A stretch of 32,332 bases of DNA from a virus: positions 1-32,332 of the IMG/VR virus record IMGVR_UViG_3300042881_001075; one strand, 5' to 3'. A program made the position numbers and the translations under genes. The notes below the pieces were generated by a model. It saw only the letters and a program-made list of their open reading frames with translations, had not been told where the DNA came from and ran no database searches. Each line of letters opens with the position of its first letter. Within the stretch, counting starts at the first letter, position 1. Positions 722 to 32,332 of this stretch are shown here, in pieces.

Positions 722-2239
722 TTATAGTGAAAAGAATCTTGCTACAGGCTTTGTTGGTACTGGCACTGTGGCACGATCATAAGAAAAGATTGATGCTACG
801 CAAGCGTCAATCTTCTTTTTGCTGTTTGCTTTTTGAATCATAAGTCCTCTTGATGAGGTCTTAGTCATAGAGTTTGCTACATGTCTGTTTAATGCTTCAT
901 GACCTGAGTGAGTAAATGAGTTATTCATAACTGCCTCATAAAATTTAGCAGTTGCTGGAACCATTCGTTCTGCAGAGTTTGGATAAGAAACTACTGGCAT
1001 ACCTTCCTCATCAAAAAGCATAAAAGTTCTGGAATATCTTGCAGGATCAAAGACTACTTCACGAATGCTGTAATCTGGGTTTCTGTATGCATCTATTATA
1101 CACGATTCTACCTCAGCAACGGGTATGAACCAGTTCTGATCTGCATCATCTGGTCTTTCCCAAATTGCTAATATGTCTAAGTGAGGCTTTTCTCCACCTA
1201 AGAACCATGCAACTATGGCTGTTGAGTCTCCATTAAAGGATCCGTCAAAACCTAAAATAACATCTTCGCCAGGAATCTGCTCTCTATTTTTAAGAGTTAG
1301 GCTATCCCAAGCGTCAGTAGGAATCCAAGTCTGAGCAGAATCAGTCCATAGATTAAGTCTTTTAGTTTTAAATTCAGCCTCTGGAGTCAAGAGCGAAGCA
1401 GATTTCATATCCTCTGCAGAGAGAATATCACCATAAGATGGGTTAGCCTTACGCCAATTATCCTCATCTTTGTAGTTAAGTTTTTCATCTCCTTGATACC
1501 AGGCGAAAAAGAAGGAAGGATCATCAACTTCACCTTTGGATAGTTGAACTCCTCTTTGGTACATTTGGTAACAGAGAGACTCTTTACCTGATGAGTCATA
1601 CTTCGTTCCAGCAGTGGTAATTGCTACAAGCATTGGCTCTAAACGAGCACCCATAGACAGAGACATTGTGTCGTATAGTTCTCTATTTGGCTGTGAGTGC
1701 AACTCGTCAAATGCCACAAATGTAGAGTTTAAACCTTCTTTAGTGAACGCTTCTGACGATAGGGCTCTATATACGGTACCTGTACTAGGATTATAAATAA
1801 CATCTCTGAATGTTTGTAATACCTCTGAGAGTTCTGGTTCTAGTTCAACCATTCTCTTTACCGTTTTAAAAATAATCTTAGCCTGCTCTTTATCTGCAGC
1901 ACAAGAATAAATCTGTCCACCGTTTACGCCAAGCAATAACTGCTCAAGCACCAAGGTAGATAGAAGTGCAGACTTGCCTGCCTTACGAGGAATCCCAATC
2001 AAAGCACGGCGATGTTTTAGAAGGCCAGACTCATCTTCTGCATACAAATGTAGCAAGAGTTCTTTCTGCCAGTCACGAAGGACTAACTTGTCCCCAACAT
2101 TTCCTGCAATTGAATCCTCAGTAATACGACAAAGTGTTTCAGCAAAATCTATAACATCATATCCACGACTATTTTGCAATTCAAGTGCGGAAACGGGAGA
2201 GAGATATGATGGAGGCCAATGTTCTATTTTGTTCTCCAT
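722..2239 (-). CDS. terL: Terminase large subunit (packaging ATPase and nuclease)
   Basis: This protein of 505 residues drives DNA into the prohead and cuts it. The ATPase domain shows a Walker A-like PRKAGKS near residue 84 and a Walker B FVAFDE near 174. The nuclease domain follows with ILGFDGSFNGDST near 328 and further acidic positions at VVFDPARY and KKKIDACVA. Length and domain order match HK97-type large terminases. The ATG at 2239 is preferred to the TTG at 2245, because AAGGG lies six bases before this ATG but directly abuts the TTG. The upstream S1-like gene ends five bases before the start, so the two are probably coupled. Confidence 0.97.
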   Translation of the reverse strand: MENKIEHWPPSYLSPVSALELQNSRGYDVIDFAETLCRITEDSIAGNVGDKLVLRDWQKELLLHLYAEDESGLLKHRRALIGIPRKAGKSALLSTLVLEQLLLGVNGGQIYSCAADKEQAKIIFKTVKRMVELEPELSEVLQTFRDVIYNPSTGTVYRALSSEAFTKEGLNSTFVAFDELHSQPNRELYDTMSLSMGARLEPMLVAITTAGTKYDSSGKESLCYQMYQRGVQLSKGEVDDPSFFFAWYQGDEKLNYKDEDNWRKANPSYGDILSAEDMKSASLLTPEAEFKTKRLNLWTDSAQTWIPTDAWDSLTLKNREQIPGEDVILGFDGSFNGDSTAIVAWFLGGEKPHLDILAIWERPDDADQNWFIPVAEVESCIIDAYRNPDYSIREVVFDPARYSRTFMLFDEEGMPVVSYPNSAERMVPATAKFYEAVMNNSFTHSGHEALNRHVANSMTKTSSRGLMIQKANSKKKIDACVASIFSYDRATVPVPTKPVARFFSL

Positions 2240-2241
2240 GA

Positions 2242-3045
2242 TCAACCCTTATATGCTAACGAGAGCCTATCCTTATCAAAATCAATTTCTAAGACTTCAA
2301 CTTCTACCTCATGACCAATAGTAAATTGCTCAGGAGTCCATTTGCCCATTTTAGATTTGTGAACCAAGCCAGAAAGAAGGCCAAGTGAGACGAAGATTCC
2401 AAAATTGTTAATACCTGAAACTCTGCCAATATATGCCTGGCCAATTTCTAATTGAGCAAACTGCATCATCTTATCTTCTTTTTGCTCTTGCTGAACAAGT
2501 GCTTTTCGTGAGATAACGATATTGCCCTTTTCTCTATCAAACTGAATTACCTTGGCTTGAATTATCTGGCCAACATAACGAGAGAAGTCTTCTGACTTAT
2601 CAATGAAAGATTGAGAAGAAGGCAAGAATGCTCTAATTCCAATATCAACAATCATGCCACCCTTGACCAATTTAGTAATTTGGCCAGAGACAACCTTGTC
2701 TTCTGAATTCCAAATAGCCTCAACTTCATTCCAGATAGCCTCAACTTCTGCTTCCTTCATAGACAAAACATACTGGCCTTCTTGGTCAATACCAATAATA
2801 CTGGCATCAACTGTTTGGCCAATTGAGACAACATCATGAATATCAATAGTGCGTCTGGCAGATACTTCCTTCTTAGGTATATATCCTTCAGTCTTACAGC
2901 CAATATCTAGAAGGACTCCTTCACGATCAATCTGTACTACTGTGCCTTTGACTGCATCCCCAACATTATATGTCTTCATGGACTCGTCAATGGCTTTTAG
3001 AAAGTCTTCTAGACTGCCTATATCGTTAATTGCTATTTGGTTCAT
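2242..3045 (-). CDS. Three-domain S1-like RNA-binding protein
   Basis: The 267 residues form three S1 (OB-fold) repeats: about 27-95 (VGDAVKGTVVQIDREGVLLD), about 115-182 (VVSGQITKLVKGGMIVDIG) and about 200-266 (IGQAYIGRVSGINNFGIFVS). Each ends with the usual strand (YVLSMKEAE, NIVISRKAL, RLSLAYKG). This is the architecture of a shortened ribosomal protein S1, which binds mRNA and helps place it on the 30S subunit. The gene starts inside the end of the small-terminase gene (20-base overlap) and ends just before the large terminase. A 21-base tandem duplication gives EVEAIWN twice between domains 1 and 2. A translation role during infection is inferred; a role in packaging or RNA protection is also possible. 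Confidence 0.92.
   Translation of the reverse strand: MNQIAINDIGSLEDFLKAIDESMKTYNVGDAVKGTVVQIDREGVLLDIGCKTEGYIPKKEVSARRTIDIHDVVSIGQTVDASIIGIDQEGQYVLSMKEAEVEAIWNEVEAIWNSEDKVVSGQITKLVKGGMIVDIGIRAFLPSSQSFIDKSEDFSRYVGQIIQAKVIQFDREKGNIVISRKALVQQEQKEDKMMQFAQLEIGQAYIGRVSGINNFGIFVSLGLLSGLVHKSKMGKWTPEQFTIGHEVEVEVLEIDFDKDRLSLAYKG
2710..2751 (-). repeat. 21-base tandem duplication inside the S1-like gene
   Basis: Two adjacent 21-base copies (2710-2730 and 2731-2751) encode EVEAIWN twice in frame. They lie in the linker between S1 domains 1 and 2, so the domains are lengthened apart rather than disrupted. Only a few bases differ between copies. Confidence 0.85.
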
Positions 3046-3550
3046 TGTCTATCGTTTCCCCTTGGATTGTGTCTTCTTCTGCAAATACTATTTTAGCACG
3101 ACGCTCTCGCTTCTCCAGTAATCTATCAATTGAAGTTGCTGCTCGTACTTCTGCTACACCTAAACGAGATCTGGAAACTGGATCAAAACCCAGTGAGGTC
3201 AGAGCATCTGTGTATGCCTTATTAATTGCCACATATGCTTTTGCATCTGCAGGCTCTGTAGAAATCATATAACGGTCTCTTGCTGCTTCATTAGCATCAG
3301 CCAAATGCGATGCATTTTTAATAGCCTCAATATCACTAACAGGACTAAGCCAAGTAACAGCCACACCCCATGCACGATTCCATAAATCTAATCCTGATTG
3401 CTTAAGACTCTCAGGTGGTTCTGGTATTTCTCTAGCCATTGGCAAATGCGTAATCACATTTAAATCTGGCAAAGGTCTTCCACCAGGGTTGCCCATGAGT
3501 CTTTTAATTTCATTAGGCTTTGGTGGCCTTCCCGCAGTTGGTTGAGCCAT
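3026..3550 (-). CDS. terS: Terminase small subunit
   Basis: This 174-residue protein precedes the S1-like protein and the large terminase. It opens with GRPPKPNEIKRLMGNPGGRP, the basic N-terminus seen in P27-like small terminases of actinobacteriophages, followed by a largely helical body (WNRAWGVAVTWLSPVSDIEA, LADANEAARDRYM) and a charged tail (RLLEKRERRAKIVFAEED). Small terminases recognise the packaging site and regulate the large subunit. The GC-rich gap directly upstream fits a cos or pac site. A ribosome site is weak: AAAGGA lies about 12 bases before the ATG. Confidence 0.85.
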   Translation of the reverse strand: MAQPTAGRPPKPNEIKRLMGNPGGRPLPDLNVITHLPMAREIPEPPESLKQSGLDLWNRAWGVAVTWLSPVSDIEAIKNASHLADANEAARDRYMISTEPADAKAYVAINKAYTDALTSLGFDPVSRSRLGVAEVRAATSIDRLLEKRERRAKIVFAEEDTIQGETIDNEPNSN

Positions 3551-3759: not shown

Positions 3760-4059
3760 TTATTTCTTAGATGAATTGCACGAACGACATAAAACCATAA
3801 TGTTGGACAATACATTCTGTCCTCCATCTGCCAAACTTAATATATGATCTGCCGTCAGGTCTTTTGTTGATCCACATCGTGAGCACCAGGGCTGCACTTG
3901 TCTTGCATATCTTGATAACTTTTGCCATTGATAATCATATCTTTTATTTCTCTGGGCTCTGGCTGGGTCCCTTGATTGAATTGTTTGAATGCATTGTGGA
4001 CAGGCACTGCCCCTGGTTATAATTCCACAATATAAACAAGGTGAATTAAATCTCTTCAT
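3760..4059 (-). CDS. HNH endonuclease next to terminase
   Basis: A 99-residue HNH nuclease. An N-terminal zinc pair CLYCG and CPQC is followed by a basic helix (YDYQWQKLSRYARQV). The HNH core comes next: WCSRCGSTKDLTADHILSLA, then NIMVLCRSCNSSK, with the two CxxC pairs of the structural zinc and the catalytic His in ADHI. HNH proteins beside terminases in HK97-like phages assist terminase cutting at cos, and size and position match that group. It ends where the candidate cos gap begins. Confidence 0.93.
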   Translation of the reverse strand: MKRFNSPCLYCGIITRGSACPQCIQTIQSRDPARAQRNKRYDYQWQKLSRYARQVQPWCSRCGSTKDLTADHILSLADGGQNVLSNIMVLCRSCNSSKK

Positions 4060-6214: not shown

Positions 6215-6462
6215 TTGCTCTTCTTCTCTCTTCTCAGTTGTTTGTGATAACAGCACTTGCATAACTGACGAGCATAATTTGGCTTGTCGCATCCTTCTGC
6301 TGTACACTTCTTCTTGTTTGTGTTCCATGTTTTGTATACTGATGAGTTACGACATGCCTTGCAATAGTAGTCATAGCCATCATCGTTTGGACGATAGGCT
6401 TTGCTCTTGTAGTATAGACTTATGTCTTTTACTTCCTTGCACTTAACGCATGTCTTATTCAT
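6211..6462 (-). CDS. Small protein with two zinc fingers
   Basis: In 83 residues there are nine cysteines. The first cluster is CVKCKEVKDISLYY with CKACRNSS, the same layout as the zinc protein at 5641-5967. The second is CTAEGCDKPNYARQLCKCC, followed by a basic tail (HKQLRREKKSK). The second cluster resembles the knuckle seen at the ends of phage HNH proteins. The gene is coupled on both sides by ATGA overlaps. Nucleic-acid binding is likely; function unknown. Confidence 0.75.
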   Translation of the reverse strand: MNKTCVKCKEVKDISLYYKSKAYRPNDDGYDYYCKACRNSSVYKTWNTNKKKCTAEGCDKPNYARQLCKCCYHKQLRREKKSK

Positions 6463-6854
6463 AGTTCTTGATCTACCCCTATAAGTCCAACATTCTCAAC
6501 TGAGGTCATGACATTGAGATGCTTTGGGTTTACACACTTTGGATTATTGCAGATATGATTAATAACCTTGGTTTGTCCAGTAAATGGATCTCCTGCTTTA
6601 GGTAAAGCGTTAAATCCGTAATGTAAAGCATAAGCAAATCTATGAGCCTTTACCTTAACTGATGTTCCTCTTTTTTGTCCATCAACCTTAATTGTAATTT
6701 GAAATGGACGATATCTATCTCTGTAGTCCCACATGGCACCTGTGTACTCAATACAGCCAGTTGACTTATTAACTAACTTGCTCTTGAATCTATCTATAAT
6801 ATTATTATCATTAATGCCATATTGAATGGCTCTATCTTTAGTACTTAGATTCAT
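6459..6854 (-). CDS. HNH homing-type endonuclease
   Basis: A 131-residue protein of the HNH_3 type. It has CIEYTGAMWDYRDRYRPF, then VKAHRFAYALHYGFNALP, then the nuclease core VINHICNNPKCVNPKHLNVM, which holds the catalytic His and the zinc-like Cys/His residues. This family acts as free-standing homing endonucleases that cut intronless target genes and spread within phage populations. It is embedded in the small zinc-protein cluster with coupled overlaps on both sides (TAATG and ATGA), so it is stably integrated rather than a recent insertion. Confidence 0.88.
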   Translation of the reverse strand: MNLSTKDRAIQYGINDNNIIDRFKSKLVNKSTGCIEYTGAMWDYRDRYRPFQITIKVDGQKRGTSVKVKAHRFAYALHYGFNALPKAGDPFTGQTKVINHICNNPKCVNPKHLNVMTSVENVGLIGVDQEL

Positions 6855-11925: not shown

Positions 11926-12587
11926 AGTTTTATTTTTTAAATATACCTAAGACCATAAATGTGTCGCTAGATATAAATATTATACAGAATGTTTGTAAGA
12001 TTCTGAATAGTCATGGTATTGATACTTCGTCTAATACTAAGTTTCATGACCATAATACTTGGCAAAACTTTGATGACGATACTTATGTCTTCAGCATTTT
12101 TAGAGATCCCGTTGACAGAACCCTGGCTGAGTTTACTAATCGCAGAATCTTTGATGATTTTGGAAAGAGAAAAAGCGATTCTGGAGTTCATGTTGATGAT
12201 ACATTAGACATATCTTTAGAAGATCTTGATATTTGGCTTACTAAGTTTTACACATCAGACTTTCAAAGTAAGACTCTTTTTAATGGAATGAATCCACCAG
12301 TAGAAGCCCTTGAACAAAAGATAAAGAGAATTAATTTGTTTATTGATGATAGTCAAATATTTCAGCAAGAAGGCCAAAACCTTATGGCTAACAAGATACT
12401 TTCTGACTTTGGTATTGAAGAAAGACTTCACACTCCATATGTTCCTCATACTCTTTTTGAACAAGGATATGCAGGAGACTTTGCGTTTAATAAAGTAAGA
12501 GGCAGCGAGTTAGAAAATAAAATTAGAAGAATGAACTATCTGGACTTATTAGTATACGAAAATAAGTCTAACTTTCATCGTCTATAG
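11916..12587 (+). CDS. Sulfotransferase-like protein, only plus-strand gene
   Basis: From the ATG at 11916 the protein has 223 residues. The front shows FLNIPKTINVSL, matching the 5'-phosphosulfate loop PKTxxxS of sulfotransferase family 2. About 50 residues later comes FSIFRDPVDRTLAEF, matching the 3'-phosphate motif. These enzymes move sulfate from PAPS to sugars or tyrosine. The usual Gly-Thr of the loop is replaced, so activity is uncertain. It runs opposite to all other genes, has its own leaderless promoter, and its end overlaps the GT61 gene tail to tail by 20 bases, all of which point to a separately acquired gene. Confidence 0.7.
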   Translation: MYNKFYFLNIPKTINVSLDINIIQNVCKILNSHGIDTSSNTKFHDHNTWQNFDDDTYVFSIFRDPVDRTLAEFTNRRIFDDFGKRKSDSGVHVDDTLDISLEDLDIWLTKFYTSDFQSKTLFNGMNPPVEALEQKIKRINLFIDDSQIFQQEGQNLMANKILSDFGIEERLHTPYVPHTLFEQGYAGDFAFNKVRGSELENKIRRMNYLDLLVYENKSNFHRL

Positions 12588-13554
12588 AGTTATAGATAAA
12601 ATCGTACATTTCTTGATAGTCTTTACAGTCCCAAGGATCCACATTCTTGTAGGTAACATCTTCTAATGATTTAACTATGTCGTGTTCCCAGTCAAACAGG
12701 TATCTTGTGTTTGGCCTTATTGCATAGAACTTAGTTCCATTCTGAGACCATATTGCGTTGTGAAAGGCAGTTCCAATAATTCCAGCCATGTGTGTAGCGT
12801 TGTGAGAGATTCTTATTTGATCCTGTAAAGGTCTTCCTGACCAACTAACAACAGCATATCCTTTGTCAACAAAGGCATTCTCTATTGCGTCTTCTACCCA
12901 TTCCTCAAAGTATCTATTCTTAAAGTATTGGTTCTTGTTTAGACCACTCTTTTTCATATCTTGACTGACATTCTTTCTACTCATAAAAATCTTTTTAGGC
13001 ATGTTCTCGTCATCAATTTTGTAGTCTTTAAAATAATTGGCCAATGCTTTAGAAACCTGTGGACAGTGTGCCTCAGCAAAGAAAGGAAACTCACCATTAA
13101 AAAAAACTCTTTGATTGTCCATCATAATTACAAGATTTTCTATAAAGAAACTTGTGTCATGAATCTCATTTCCCATCATGTATATGCCATGATCGCCAAA
13201 GTCTTGCATGATCTTTCCATGAGCAAACTCTATTAGTTCAGCCATTGGATGAAAAGTGTAGTTGTCTTTTCCAGAAAAGGTCTCTAAGAAGAAAGGCTTT
13301 AGGTCTTTAAATATTGATTGACAGTATAAAAATCCACCCACAGATTCTTTTAGCCAGTGTCCGTATTGTCTGCCTCCATCTGTAAGGCACATCCAATATC
13401 CTGGCATTTCATAATGCTTTTTGTTCTTAGCCCATGGATTAATTCTAACATTCTTAAATACATAGACAGGCAAGTCTTCATTTGGGACTGAGATAACTTC
13501 GTCATAATATGTCTCAAAGTTAAATATTGGTCTTTCAAATTGACTATTAGACAT
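12568..13554 (-). CDS. GT61-like (DUF563) glycosyltransferase
   Basis: A 328-residue protein with the family landmarks in order: GRQYGHWLKESVGGFLYC in the middle of the first half, KKIFMSRKNVSQ near residue 187, and the C-terminal GYAVVSWSGRPLQDQIRIS with MAGIIGTAFHNAIWSQNGTK. GT61 enzymes add pentoses, GlcNAc or related sugars to proteins and polysaccharides. It is the last gene of the late operon, coupled to the radical SAM gene (TAATG). Being transcribed with virion and oxygenase genes suggests a virion glycan target; that is inference. No membrane segment is seen. Confidence 0.85.
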   Translation of the reverse strand: MSNSQFERPIFNFETYYDEVISVPNEDLPVYVFKNVRINPWAKNKKHYEMPGYWMCLTDGGRQYGHWLKESVGGFLYCQSIFKDLKPFFLETFSGKDNYTFHPMAELIEFAHGKIMQDFGDHGIYMMGNEIHDTSFFIENLVIMMDNQRVFFNGEFPFFAEAHCPQVSKALANYFKDYKIDDENMPKKIFMSRKNVSQDMKKSGLNKNQYFKNRYFEEWVEDAIENAFVDKGYAVVSWSGRPLQDQIRISHNATHMAGIIGTAFHNAIWSQNGTKFYAIRPNTRYLFDWEHDIVKSLEDVTYKNVDPWDCKDYQEMYDFIYNSIDDES

Positions 13555-14408
13555 TAGAACTCATCTACTTTCAGATCTATCTTGCATCCTGCACAAATAC
13601 CAGACTTAGGCCCATCCTTCTCAAGATGGTCTCTCCAAGGCTTATACTTTTCGTTTCTGTAGATTTCCCACAGTGGAGCATCATTTACATGAGCCATAAT
13701 TCCATTCTTGTGCTCAGGTACATCTGATCTTGTGTTGCAACAGACCATTACGCTTCCATTGTAATCAATGTACATATTCTTGAATGGTTGTGTACATGCT
13801 TTTGTTCTTACATATTCTTCGTTAAATCCCGCAACTTTTTCAGTTCTGGCAGTTCCCTCAACAGCAAAGTTTCTTGCTCTTAGATGTACTACTATGCCAT
13901 CTACGATTAGGTCGTATTCAATTCTGTGGTTTTCTATGTCAGAAATAACAACATAGTCAACACCCAGCATCTTTATCTTCTGTTGCATACGCTTCTTCAT
14001 CTTGGCATGGTCGTATTGCTCATTATTTGCAAGGTACTGTTGAATAAACAACTCGTTAAGCCCTGCGTCTCTAAGAGCATAAATATAGTCAAGGGTAACA
14101 TAGTCACCATTTGTGTTGGTTCTAAGTTTTGACTTTGGTAAGATTTCTCTGGCTTGAGAGATACGCTTTAGGATTATCTCTCTATAGGCTAATGGCTCGT
14201 TATACCTGCTATAGGTAATTTCTTTGTCATAGTCTATTTCTGCTAACTGATTAAGGATAGATAGATACATTTCTTCTGGCATCACATTATTGTCAGAATG
14301 CCTATCTATAAAAGAGTTAGGACAAAACCAGCATTTTCTATTACAGAAAGAGTATACTTCTATTTCTATAAGGTTGAGTTGGCCTTTAAACCACTTTTGA
14401 AGGTCCAT
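13554..14408 (-). CDS. Radical SAM enzyme with SPASM-like C-terminus
   Basis: The start at 14408 follows GGGA eight bases upstream and gives 284 residues; the longer in-frame reading lies entirely inside the oxygenase gene upstream. CNRKCWFC at residues 22-29 is the CxxxCxxC cluster motif that binds the SAM iron-sulfur cluster, with YSRYNEPLAYREI and LRTNTNGDYV downstream. The end has KACTQPFKNMYIDYNGSVMV, CC and ICAGCK, the cysteines of a SPASM/Twitch auxiliary cluster. Such enzymes modify peptides or sugars by radical chemistry. It sits between oxygenase and glycosyltransferase genes with 23- and 1-base overlaps. Confidence 0.92.
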   Translation of the reverse strand: MDLQKWFKGQLNLIEIEVYSFCNRKCWFCPNSFIDRHSDNNVMPEEMYLSILNQLAEIDYDKEITYSRYNEPLAYREIILKRISQAREILPKSKLRTNTNGDYVTLDYIYALRDAGLNELFIQQYLANNEQYDHAKMKKRMQQKIKMLGVDYVVISDIENHRIEYDLIVDGIVVHLRARNFAVEGTARTEKVAGFNEEYVRTKACTQPFKNMYIDYNGSVMVCCNTRSDVPEHKNGIMAHVNDAPLWEIYRNEKYKPWRDHLEKDGPKSGICAGCKIDLKVDEF

Positions 14409-15111
14409 ATAGAGTGTCCCAATACTCTTTTTCTGCCTGATACTTTTCTTCAAAGTTAGCAACATGGCGATAGTCACAGCATTTGCATACAGGTCTTCCA
14501 TCGCTATAGTCAGGCATTGACCATTCTCCGTATTGAACTCTAAACTTAAAGTCTGACTTCCATGAATTTTCAGCAAATCCTTCTTGGTCTTTTTGAGTAA
14601 AGAACCAGTGGTCAGGCTCTGCAAACTGCATGAATAGAAGTGTTACAAATTTGTCTTCGTCTTCTGTTGGAAACTTTGGTCTCCAGTGCATGTGATCATT
14701 GCCAGAAAAGACGATGCACTGATTAGGTGCTTCATCAAAAGTCTTATCATCTGCAATTAATTGCCAGTCAACATTCTTATCAATACAGATATCTAGCGAG
14801 TACTGGCAAGCAGACTGATCAACATGCTTCCATAGTTGTGGAGTGATACCGTTTTGCTTTTGGTATCTAGCAGTATGAAATCCAGCCCTTTGAAGTTTGT
14901 CATTTCCAAAAGTCTTCTTTGCTATTTCCAAAATCTCTGCCTCTGTTTCAGGATCAAAATCAATCTGTGTAAGCCATCGTCCTGCTACTGTGTGATAGAA
15001 GTGTGGACCATCTGGACCCATATCCAAGGAAAGAACCTTTGCCTTAACCTTCTCAAATAGTTCTGGTGGAAAGAAGTCTACAATAGATCTTGCTTCAACA
15101 TTACTTGTCAT
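14386..15111 (-). CDS. Fe(II)/2-oxoglutarate oxygenase-like protein with Cys tail
   Basis: In 241 residues the metal triad reads H96-V-D98 (KHVDQSACQYSLDICID) and H142 (GNDHMHWRPKF), followed by FMQFAEPDHWFFT. The same HW-R and VEPDHW-F blocks occur in its neighbour at 15101-15667, so the two are paralogues. It has about 50 extra C-terminal residues with CKCCDYRH, a possible metal site. These folds hydroxylate proteins or small molecules using iron and 2-oxoglutarate. The start overlaps the end of the paralogue by 11 bases. Confidence 0.75.
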   Translation of the reverse strand: MTSNVEARSIVDFFPPELFEKVKAKVLSLDMGPDGPHFYHTVAGRWLTQIDFDPETEAEILEIAKKTFGNDKLQRAGFHTARYQKQNGITPQLWKHVDQSACQYSLDICIDKNVDWQLIADDKTFDEAPNQCIVFSGNDHMHWRPKFPTEDEDKFVTLLFMQFAEPDHWFFTQKDQEGFAENSWKSDFKFRVQYGEWSMPDYSDGRPVCKCCDYRHVANFEEKYQAEKEYWDTLYGPSKVV

Positions 15112-15667
15112 TCATTTCTCCTTTGGCGTGTTCTTTGTATATTTCATAAATATGCTCAGGTCCTTTAGTAAAGTACCAATGGTCTGGTTCCACATAATGA
15201 AAGAAGACAACTCCTATTTTACCAGTATTGTTATAAAGAGTTTCTCTCCAGTGTTCAAGTTCCTCACCCATAAACAAAATTGCTTCATTTGGTCTGGCTG
15301 TGTAAGGTTGTCCATCTATGTAAAGTGCCCAAGGATCTCCTTGATAAAGAACCAAGTCAAGCGTATATGTGCAGGCATTTAAATCTTTATGCTTATGAAG
15401 ACTAATAGTCTCATCAGAATACTCTGCAAATAAAGAATATGATGGAAGTAATGTCTTGCTATTAAAGTATTCTCTAACCTTTGGCAAAAGTATCTCAGCA
15501 TATTCTTTTAGAATAGGATCAGAATCACCAATTAGTTTGCGACCAAATTCATCTACAGGCATGTTTGCAAGATGAGGATTTTCCTTAAAATGTATTCTTA
15601 GTCTGTCAAAATCAACAGGATTTAATACATTCTTGATTAAGCCAACTTCTTTGTTTATGCCATCCAT
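15101..15667 (-). CDS. Fe(II)/2-oxoglutarate oxygenase-like protein
   Basis: A 188-residue protein with H93-K-D95 (ISLHKHKDLNACTYTLDL) and H139 (GEELEHWRETL) as the likely iron ligands, then FFHYVEPDHWYFT. The jelly-roll pattern ACTYTLDLVLY, ARPNEAILFMG fits the double-stranded beta-helix of cupin-type oxygenases. It is a clear paralogue of the gene at 14386-15111 and overlaps both neighbours by 11-13 bases. The substrate is unknown; the arginine for 2-oxoglutarate is not certain. Confidence 0.75.
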   Translation of the reverse strand: MDGINKEVGLIKNVLNPVDFDRLRIHFKENPHLANMPVDEFGRKLIGDSDPILKEYAEILLPKVREYFNSKTLLPSYSLFAEYSDETISLHKHKDLNACTYTLDLVLYQGDPWALYIDGQPYTARPNEAILFMGEELEHWRETLYNNTGKIGVVFFHYVEPDHWYFTKGPEHIYEIYKEHAKGEMNDK

Positions 15668-16221
15668 TGGACCACCACATATCTCAATCCATCAGTTACT
15701 GGGTGAACCTTATGATTGTACATAAAATTTGAAGGGAAAATTAAAAGGTCATTCTTCTTAGCCTTAAACCTTAGCCCATATCTATTAAACTCTACATCTC
15801 CACCTTCATATTCATCATTTAGGTAGTATGTTAAAGATATTCTACGAGTGAAGAATGGGTGGTCATCTATATGGTCATGGAACTGTTGATCTTTTCCATA
15901 CCTCAAAAGTTGTGGATTCTCAAACTTTTCTATTGTTGCAAAGTATGTAGCCATATACTGGTCTAAGCAAGGCTTTAGGTTCTTGTGAAATTCTTTTGTA
16001 AATTCCGCCAAGATTCCAGTTTCTTCTGACTCATGGTGTGGAAGCATAATAAAATCAGTATCTCTTGCTTTAGTGTCTGTTCCAGACTCATACTCATCTT
16101 GATTTACAAGTACTTCTGCTGGTCTCCAAGACAGGCCTTCTTCTTCAATACGCTTTATATAATCTAATGAATTAGTAAATACATCTTCAAATACTACTAT
16201 TCCTGGTGCTAGTTCTTTCAT
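15655..16221 (-). CDS. Prolyl 4-hydroxylase-type oxygenase
   Basis: The clearest member of the set, 188 residues. H117-I-D119 (FHDHIDDHPFFTRRISLTYY) binds iron, followed by LNDEYEGGDVEFNRYG, the EGGxxxF block of the P4Hc family. LLIFPSNFMYNHKVHPVTDG carries the distal His173, and Arg180 is placed to hold 2-oxoglutarate. Family members hydroxylate proline in proteins or other side chains. GAGGGG lies about ten bases before the ATG. It heads three oxygenase genes in tandem. A proline-rich repeat protein is encoded four genes upstream in the same direction and is an obvious substrate candidate. Confidence 0.9.
   Translation of the reverse strand: MKELAPGIVVFEDVFTNSLDYIKRIEEEGLSWRPAEVLVNQDEYESGTDTKARDTDFIMLPHHESEETGILAEFTKEFHKNLKPCLDQYMATYFATIEKFENPQLLRYGKDQQFHDHIDDHPFFTRRISLTYYLNDEYEGGDVEFNRYGLRFKAKKNDLLIFPSNFMYNHKVHPVTDGLRYVVVQWMA

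Positions 16222-29882: not shown

Positions 29883-32332
<2,450 letters not shown>

Follow-up and report, generated by a model that had tools for sequence, protein, structure and literature searches.

The window analysed is the whole of a single IMG/VR record (IMGVR_UViG_3300042881_001075; 32,332 bases), which is classed as 'linear' and is therefore probably incomplete; one open reading frame is still open at position 32330. Between the genes for the small (TerS) and large (TerL) terminase subunits lies a gene for a protein with three S1 domains (Table 1). The initial annotation had proposed both this position and the three domains, and both were confirmed, the domains by a Pfam S1 match (PF00575, E 2.6e-41) in three stretches. 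A search of the whole record for the S1 Pfam family gave no second match beyond 2242-3045. The first 20 nt of S1 overlap the end of terS, and the ATG of terL is found 2 nt past the S1 stop codon. Genes for portal, head protease and major capsid proteins were identified elsewhere in the record, on the same strand as S1. Two further contigs (L001 and L002) have an arrangement identical to that of the window with 100% protein identity, which makes an assembly artefact unlikely.

Table 1. Features of the terS-S1-terL region (window coordinates; residue numbers are those of the phage S1 protein)
Feature	Position	Strand	Remarks
TerL (large terminase)	722..2239	-	Pfam TerL_ATPase 1.2e-25; phrog_9 1.7e-111
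Phage mini-bS1 gene	2242..3045	-	ATG start, 267 aa, D1-D3; Pfam, NCBIfam and PDB sequence matches
S1 domain 3 (D3)	2248..2451	-	Pfam S1 match; presumed RNA-binding positions 215, 218, 229, 255, 260
S1 domain 2 (D2)	2503..2703	-	Pfam S1 match
S1 domain 1 (D1)	2755..2970	-	Pfam S1 match; D47 and K51 correspond to E. coli D39 and K43
N-terminal helix, residues 12-22	2980..3012	-	Putative counterpart of the uS2-docking helix of E. coli S1; F15 invariant
TerS (small terminase)	3026..3550	-	phrog_83 2.6e-10; Pfam match of 20.2 bits, under the cut-off of 27
Shine-Dalgarno-like AAGGGG	3058..3063	-	Inside terS, upstream of the S1 ATG

The top NCBIfam match of the S1 protein was NF005911 (30S ribosomal protein S1; E 7.4e-78), with residues 2-266 of the query aligned to 9-277 of the 486 positions of the model, and the top match among PDB sequences was the bS1 of M. 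smegmatis on the 70S ribosome (8wi7; 9.2e-73), in which residues 10-277 are collinear with residues 3-266 of the query. In both cases the S1 domains follow the order of the rpsA product and homology extends over the full length of the phage protein. In M. smegmatis bS1 a fourth domain (D4) comes directly after D3 (residues 280-363 match D3 again), at the point where the phage protein ends. None of the 70 distinct complete phage sequences has the D4 or the C-terminal tail of host bS1, and each ends after D3; the phage protein does not have the four domains plus tail found in most Actinobacteria, and a three-domain S1 is known from some members of that phylum (PMC6705787). Since its score against NF005911 (262.4 bits) is below the equivalog cut-off of 691 and all sequences end after D3, the protein was classed as derived from bS1 and not as a bS1 equivalog. 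The top structural matches of an AlphaFold model (30-sequence alignment, mean pLDDT 83.4, pTM 0.53, first seven residues of low confidence) were bS1 chains in 30S complexes (9gux_B, Z 16.4 over 251 residues, rmsd 4.2), and the same was seen with Foldseek. By homology, 2242-3045 encodes D1-D3, the N-terminal half of bS1 as found in Actinobacteria: a mini-bS1, and not merely an 'S1-like' protein.

The distribution of the gene was determined from both S1 and TerL. The S1 query gave 27 loci. The TerL query matched 144 relatives, of which the best 80 were used; S1 abuts TerL in 78 of these contigs, and the other two have no upstream sequence, so that the slot is occupied in every contig (78/78) in which it can be seen. 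This survey of gene order, which the initial annotation had recommended, also qualifies its description of phage S1 genes as uncommon and of their insertion at this place as odd: such terms may suit phages at large, but among the clade contigs examined with upstream sequence the arrangement is universal. A scan with a TerL profile added 58 new loci among the best 80 of 577 matches. S1 was in the slot in ten, 40 had no S1 with at least 200 nt of upstream sequence, and eight had too little upstream sequence; the S1-less loci among these best 80 have a TerL identity of at most 69%. In a TerL tree of 51 chosen sequences there was a single change of label, all 28 S1-carrying rows forming one clade (100/99) and all 23 S1-less rows falling outside it, with L229 and L231 as the sister group. 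No loss of S1 was seen among these 51 sequences, and on the TerL tree the gene is reconstructed as having been gained once.

Exactly three S1 domains were present in each of nine long S1-carrying records, while none was found anywhere in 11 S1-less environmental records of 16-35 kb or in Pontimonas phage phiPsal1. In the annotated phage collection it is this last phage whose TerL matches best (43.9%), and its terS and terL genes are adjacent; the sister phages likewise have TerS and TerL families homologous to those of the window, directly adjacent and without S1. By tblastn, 41 records were retrieved from the phage collection, every one below 60% identity. In one locus (L225:601-1377) an open reading frame of 258 aa with a weak methyltransferase match below the cut-off lies between TerS and S1; the slot between terS and terL thus accepts inserts other than S1. 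A WhiB gene (PF02467) was found in five of five S1-less sister records of at least 28 kb (G662-G666) and in phiPsal1, in none of six shorter S1-less records, and in none of nine S1-carrying records (the window and G653-G660 included). The gain of S1 may have coincided with the loss of WhiB, or the two groups may simply differ.

A phylogeny of the phage S1 domains against host S1, also suggested by the initial annotation, was built from 94 rows (35 phage proteins, 47 Actinomycetes bS1 and 12 chosen from 80 genome-contig loci; duplicates and L107 were left out). The phage proteins formed one clade (100/100) which joined the Actinomycetes bS1 (100/89) inside Actinomycetota, with two Acidimicrobiia-type rows outside this grouping. 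The phage clade sits on a long stem (1.18 changes per site); for this reason the exact donor is not placed by the tree. Among Actinomycetes genomes, 379 of 394 had a match, with an identity of 46-50% among the best matches listed. The simplest reading is one capture from an actinobacterial host. The present host, too, is predicted to be actinobacterial from the S1 tree, the nearest cultured TerL relative (phiPsal1, 43.9%) and the WhiB genes of the S1-less sisters; the tree names no host order, and the long phage stem may draw the clade toward the base. In 296 genomes from a single order of Actinomycetes with small genomes, a TerL profile gave no matches, an empty answer which says nothing on the host.

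Pairwise dN/dS values (Nei-Gojobori; window against seven chosen relatives) were 0.11-0.19 for S1, 0.14-0.19 for TerS and 0.04-0.09 for TerL, and S1 is thus under purifying selection. With TerS, TerL, portal, protease and capsid genes in the same record, the gene qualifies as one for a phage-encoded ribosomal protein. That it might be a functionless host gene fragment carried along by hitchhiking, as its long stem branch and truncated reading frame could suggest, is already contradicted by these dN/dS values, by the identical end point of the 70 distinct complete sequences and by the fact that no loss was seen, and its probability is practically negligible.

The docking of S1 on the ribosome has been described for E. 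coli, where the protein is tethered to uS2 by a short N-terminal helix (F5, F9) together with D39 and K43 of D1 (PMC4288201). The counterparts of F5, D39 and K43 in the phage protein (F15, D47 and K51) do not vary across 30 phage sequences or across 50 actinobacterial (Actinomycetes) rows, two duplicate genomes included; the counterpart of F9 is I or V in the phage and Actinomycetes proteins alike. The phage protein thus appears to have kept the residues for uS2 docking.

In D3, F218, H229, D255 and R260 are invariant in the phages and position 215 is F or Y. These five positions are taken here to be RNA-binding, a choice that follows the S1 domain of PNPase. On this assumption the RNA-binding surface is retained, and the initial annotation, which had named the lack of such residues as evidence against its proposal, is not contradicted on this point. 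D3 is also the most conserved of the three domains, with a mean pairwise identity among phage proteins of 0.664 (D2, 0.610; D1, 0.585).

Taken with the descent from bS1, the kept docking and RNA-binding residues make the ribosome or mRNA role suggested by the initial annotation likely. The reading preferred here, with moderate confidence, is that a captured actinobacterial D1-D3 mini-bS1 acts on the host 30S subunit late in infection and aids initiation on phage mRNAs. The ancestor of the clade would have captured D1-D3 of an actinobacterial bS1 once and its descendants would have kept it. The protein would be made alongside the late (packaging and virion) genes, a timing suggested by the packaging genes around it and by the example of phage bS21, for which late expression was deduced from metatranscriptomes (PMC9723584). 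Through its N-terminal helix and D1 it would dock via uS2 on the host 30S subunit, where D3 would hold mRNA; full-length host bS1 would be partly displaced, and host ribosomes would go on initiating on phage late mRNAs.

Support for a working three-domain protein comes from E. coli, in which D1-D3 were reported to retain 30S binding 'fully' and to be the minimal S1 keeping most functions on structured mRNAs, with 70% of the initiation complex for thrS and 50-60% for rpsO mRNAs, while cells with D1-D3 alone grew extremely slowly (Duval 2013, PMC3858243). Against the reading, these direct data are for E. coli and not for an actinobacterium. Its function may also have drifted from that of host bS1, given the long stem (1.18) and the identity of 46-50% among the best matches listed.

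A more elaborate version of the preferred reading is regarded as doubtful. According to it, mini-bS1 would be an exchangeable cassette for reprogramming ribosomes, which replaces host bS1 late, biases initiation and recombines in its fixed slot apart from the terminase, perhaps to match the ribosome of the current host. It touches on the S1 and TerL trees of 61 loci, which conflict. The partners of the window are L013, L014 and L020 by TerL and L003, L005, L006, L077 and L035 by S1; the TerL group was rejected when forced on the S1 data (p-AU 1.3e-7), as was the S1 group when forced on the TerL data (p-AU 0.006), both groups having been named after the trees were seen. In the TerS tree the window is near L013, L014, L020, L016-L018 and L200. 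From the agreement of TerS and TerL against S1, alleles of S1 appear to have been exchanged independently of the terminase in the lineage of the window, which speaks against close co-adaptation with the terminase. A second candidate, a swap of S1 in L096/L200 between two large clades, was unsupported (p-AU 0.364).

It is unlikely, though the best placed of the rival explanations, that mini-bS1 is a dominant-negative displacer which occupies the uS2 site, ejects host bS1 and stops S1-dependent host translation while phage mRNAs with good Shine-Dalgarno (SD) sequences continue. When the S1 fragments 1-106 and 1-194, which are without D3, are overproduced in E. coli, native S1 is displaced and bulk translation comes to a halt, but leaderless mRNA is still translated, as is unstructured mRNA with an SD (Byrgazov, PMC3296737). 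Such a role would agree with the clear SDs of the window genes and with the absence of D4 and the tail from every one of the 70 distinct complete phage proteins. For a displacer, however, the N-terminal part would suffice, yet the phage protein also has D2 and D3, the latter being the best conserved domain and having its putative RNA-binding residues intact. The content of the phage protein is of the D1-D3 kind and not of the 1-106 or 1-194 kind, and a working mini-S1 is therefore favoured over a pure blocker.

Nor is SD use any stronger than in S1-less relatives. With genes called by a simple longest-ORF scheme and a threshold of -4.5 kcal/mol or better, SD pairing was found for 73% of the window's genes (33 called), compared with 16% of background positions, and for 125 of 200 genes in six S1-carrying records against 129 of 225 in six S1-less records (P 0.62). 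Unfolding at start sites was slightly larger in the S1-carrying phages (P 0.028), a difference which was given no weight because internal folding energy (composition) is not the same in the two groups either. No altered initiation signature was seen between the two sets of six records, a point that also counts against the preferred reading. Leaderless or SD-less initiation, to which the initial annotation had linked the S1 gene, was accordingly not supported, ordinary SDs being equally frequent at start sites with and without S1. Its other link, to an anti-SD RNA, did not hold either: the 16S tail CACCTCCTTT had no match with up to one mismatch allowed. An Rfam gathering search gave no match and no tRNAs were found.

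Less probable still is a role off the ribosome, in which the protein would chaperone RNA, serve as a cofactor (of a nuclease of phage or host, for instance) or protect late phage mRNA. S1 domains occur in many RNA proteins (Spt6_S1 and other S1-domain families of Pfam also match the phage protein), and host S1 serves T4 RegB, Qbeta replicase and lambda beta (cited in PMC13157829). Such a role leaves unexplained why the residues that correspond to F5 (uS2 docking) and to the D1 salt bridge are invariant in the phages.

A nucleic-acid binding protein associated with packaging or the terminase, a coupling which the initial annotation had also raised, is very unlikely. The position of the gene is fixed in every S1-carrying contig examined, but the S1-less sister phages and records described above manage with homologous, directly adjacent TerS and TerL; with 40 of the 58 new loci (best 80 of 577) lacking S1, this TerS/TerL family does not need it. 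The conflict between the S1 and TerL trees (groups chosen post hoc) and the homology to bS1 over the entire length also argue against a packaging part, and action of mini-bS1 on the host ribosome is more likely.

Ribosomal proteins of phages are already known, as are S1 proteins in huge phages and in Microcystis phage PhiMa05 (PMC7162821, PMC13157829). Actinobacterial bS1 itself (rpsA; NF005911/PRK07899; 8wi7) shares with the phage protein the collinear D1-D3, the N-terminal helix predicted to dock and the D3 residues; the phage protein differs from it in the missing D4 and tail and in its identity of 46-50% among the best matches listed. Phage bS21 is similarly an initiation ribosomal protein, encoded in conserved TerL/capsid regions with packaging and capsid genes as neighbours (Chen 2022, PMC9723584). 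It is, however, another protein, from genomes of up to 331 kb with Bacteroidetes hosts, and is encoded on the opposite strand, whereas the S1 gene here is on contigs of about 30 kb, on the same strand and between terS and terL. The S1-like proteins of huge phages and PhiMa05 are of the same kind and have a proposed role in initiation. There they are tied to rare SDs (PMC7162821) or belong to a set of several ribosomal proteins (PMC13157829), unlike the present gene, which is the sole S1-domain gene in its record and goes with normal SDs; the association of S1 with rare SDs was not seen here. The E. coli D1-D3 construct (PMC3858243), minimal for S1 function in vitro, has identical domain content but is a laboratory truncation of a proteobacterial protein, whereas the phage gene is natural. 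S1 domains were judged ambiguous and excluded in a large survey of ribosomal proteins in viruses from 2019 (PMC6375957), which therefore did not cover the present class; a freshwater phage survey reports S21 or L12 (PMC6802176). No description of an S1 gene between terS and terL was found in the literature searched, most subscription papers being outside its scope. As far as these searches show, what is new is that a clade of small phages has a conserved D1-D3 protein descended from actinobacterial bS1, with a fixed place between terS and terL. If the preferred reading is true, the core defined by deletions in E. coli would have a natural counterpart, a minimal S1 selected across a clade of phages with contigs of about 30 kb. 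How a phage takes over ribosomes with an initiation protein of its own, and how short S1 can become in Actinobacteria, could then be tested on it.

Other genes of the window include two for HNH endonucleases upstream of terS, one close to it (3760-4059) and one at 6459-6854; such genes are common in the vicinity of phage terminases. Genes for a glycosyltransferase 61, a radical SAM/SPASM protein and a 2OG-Fe(II) oxygenase were identified at 12568-16221, downstream of the structural genes. Phage phiPsal1 has glycosyltransferases too, located among its structural genes.
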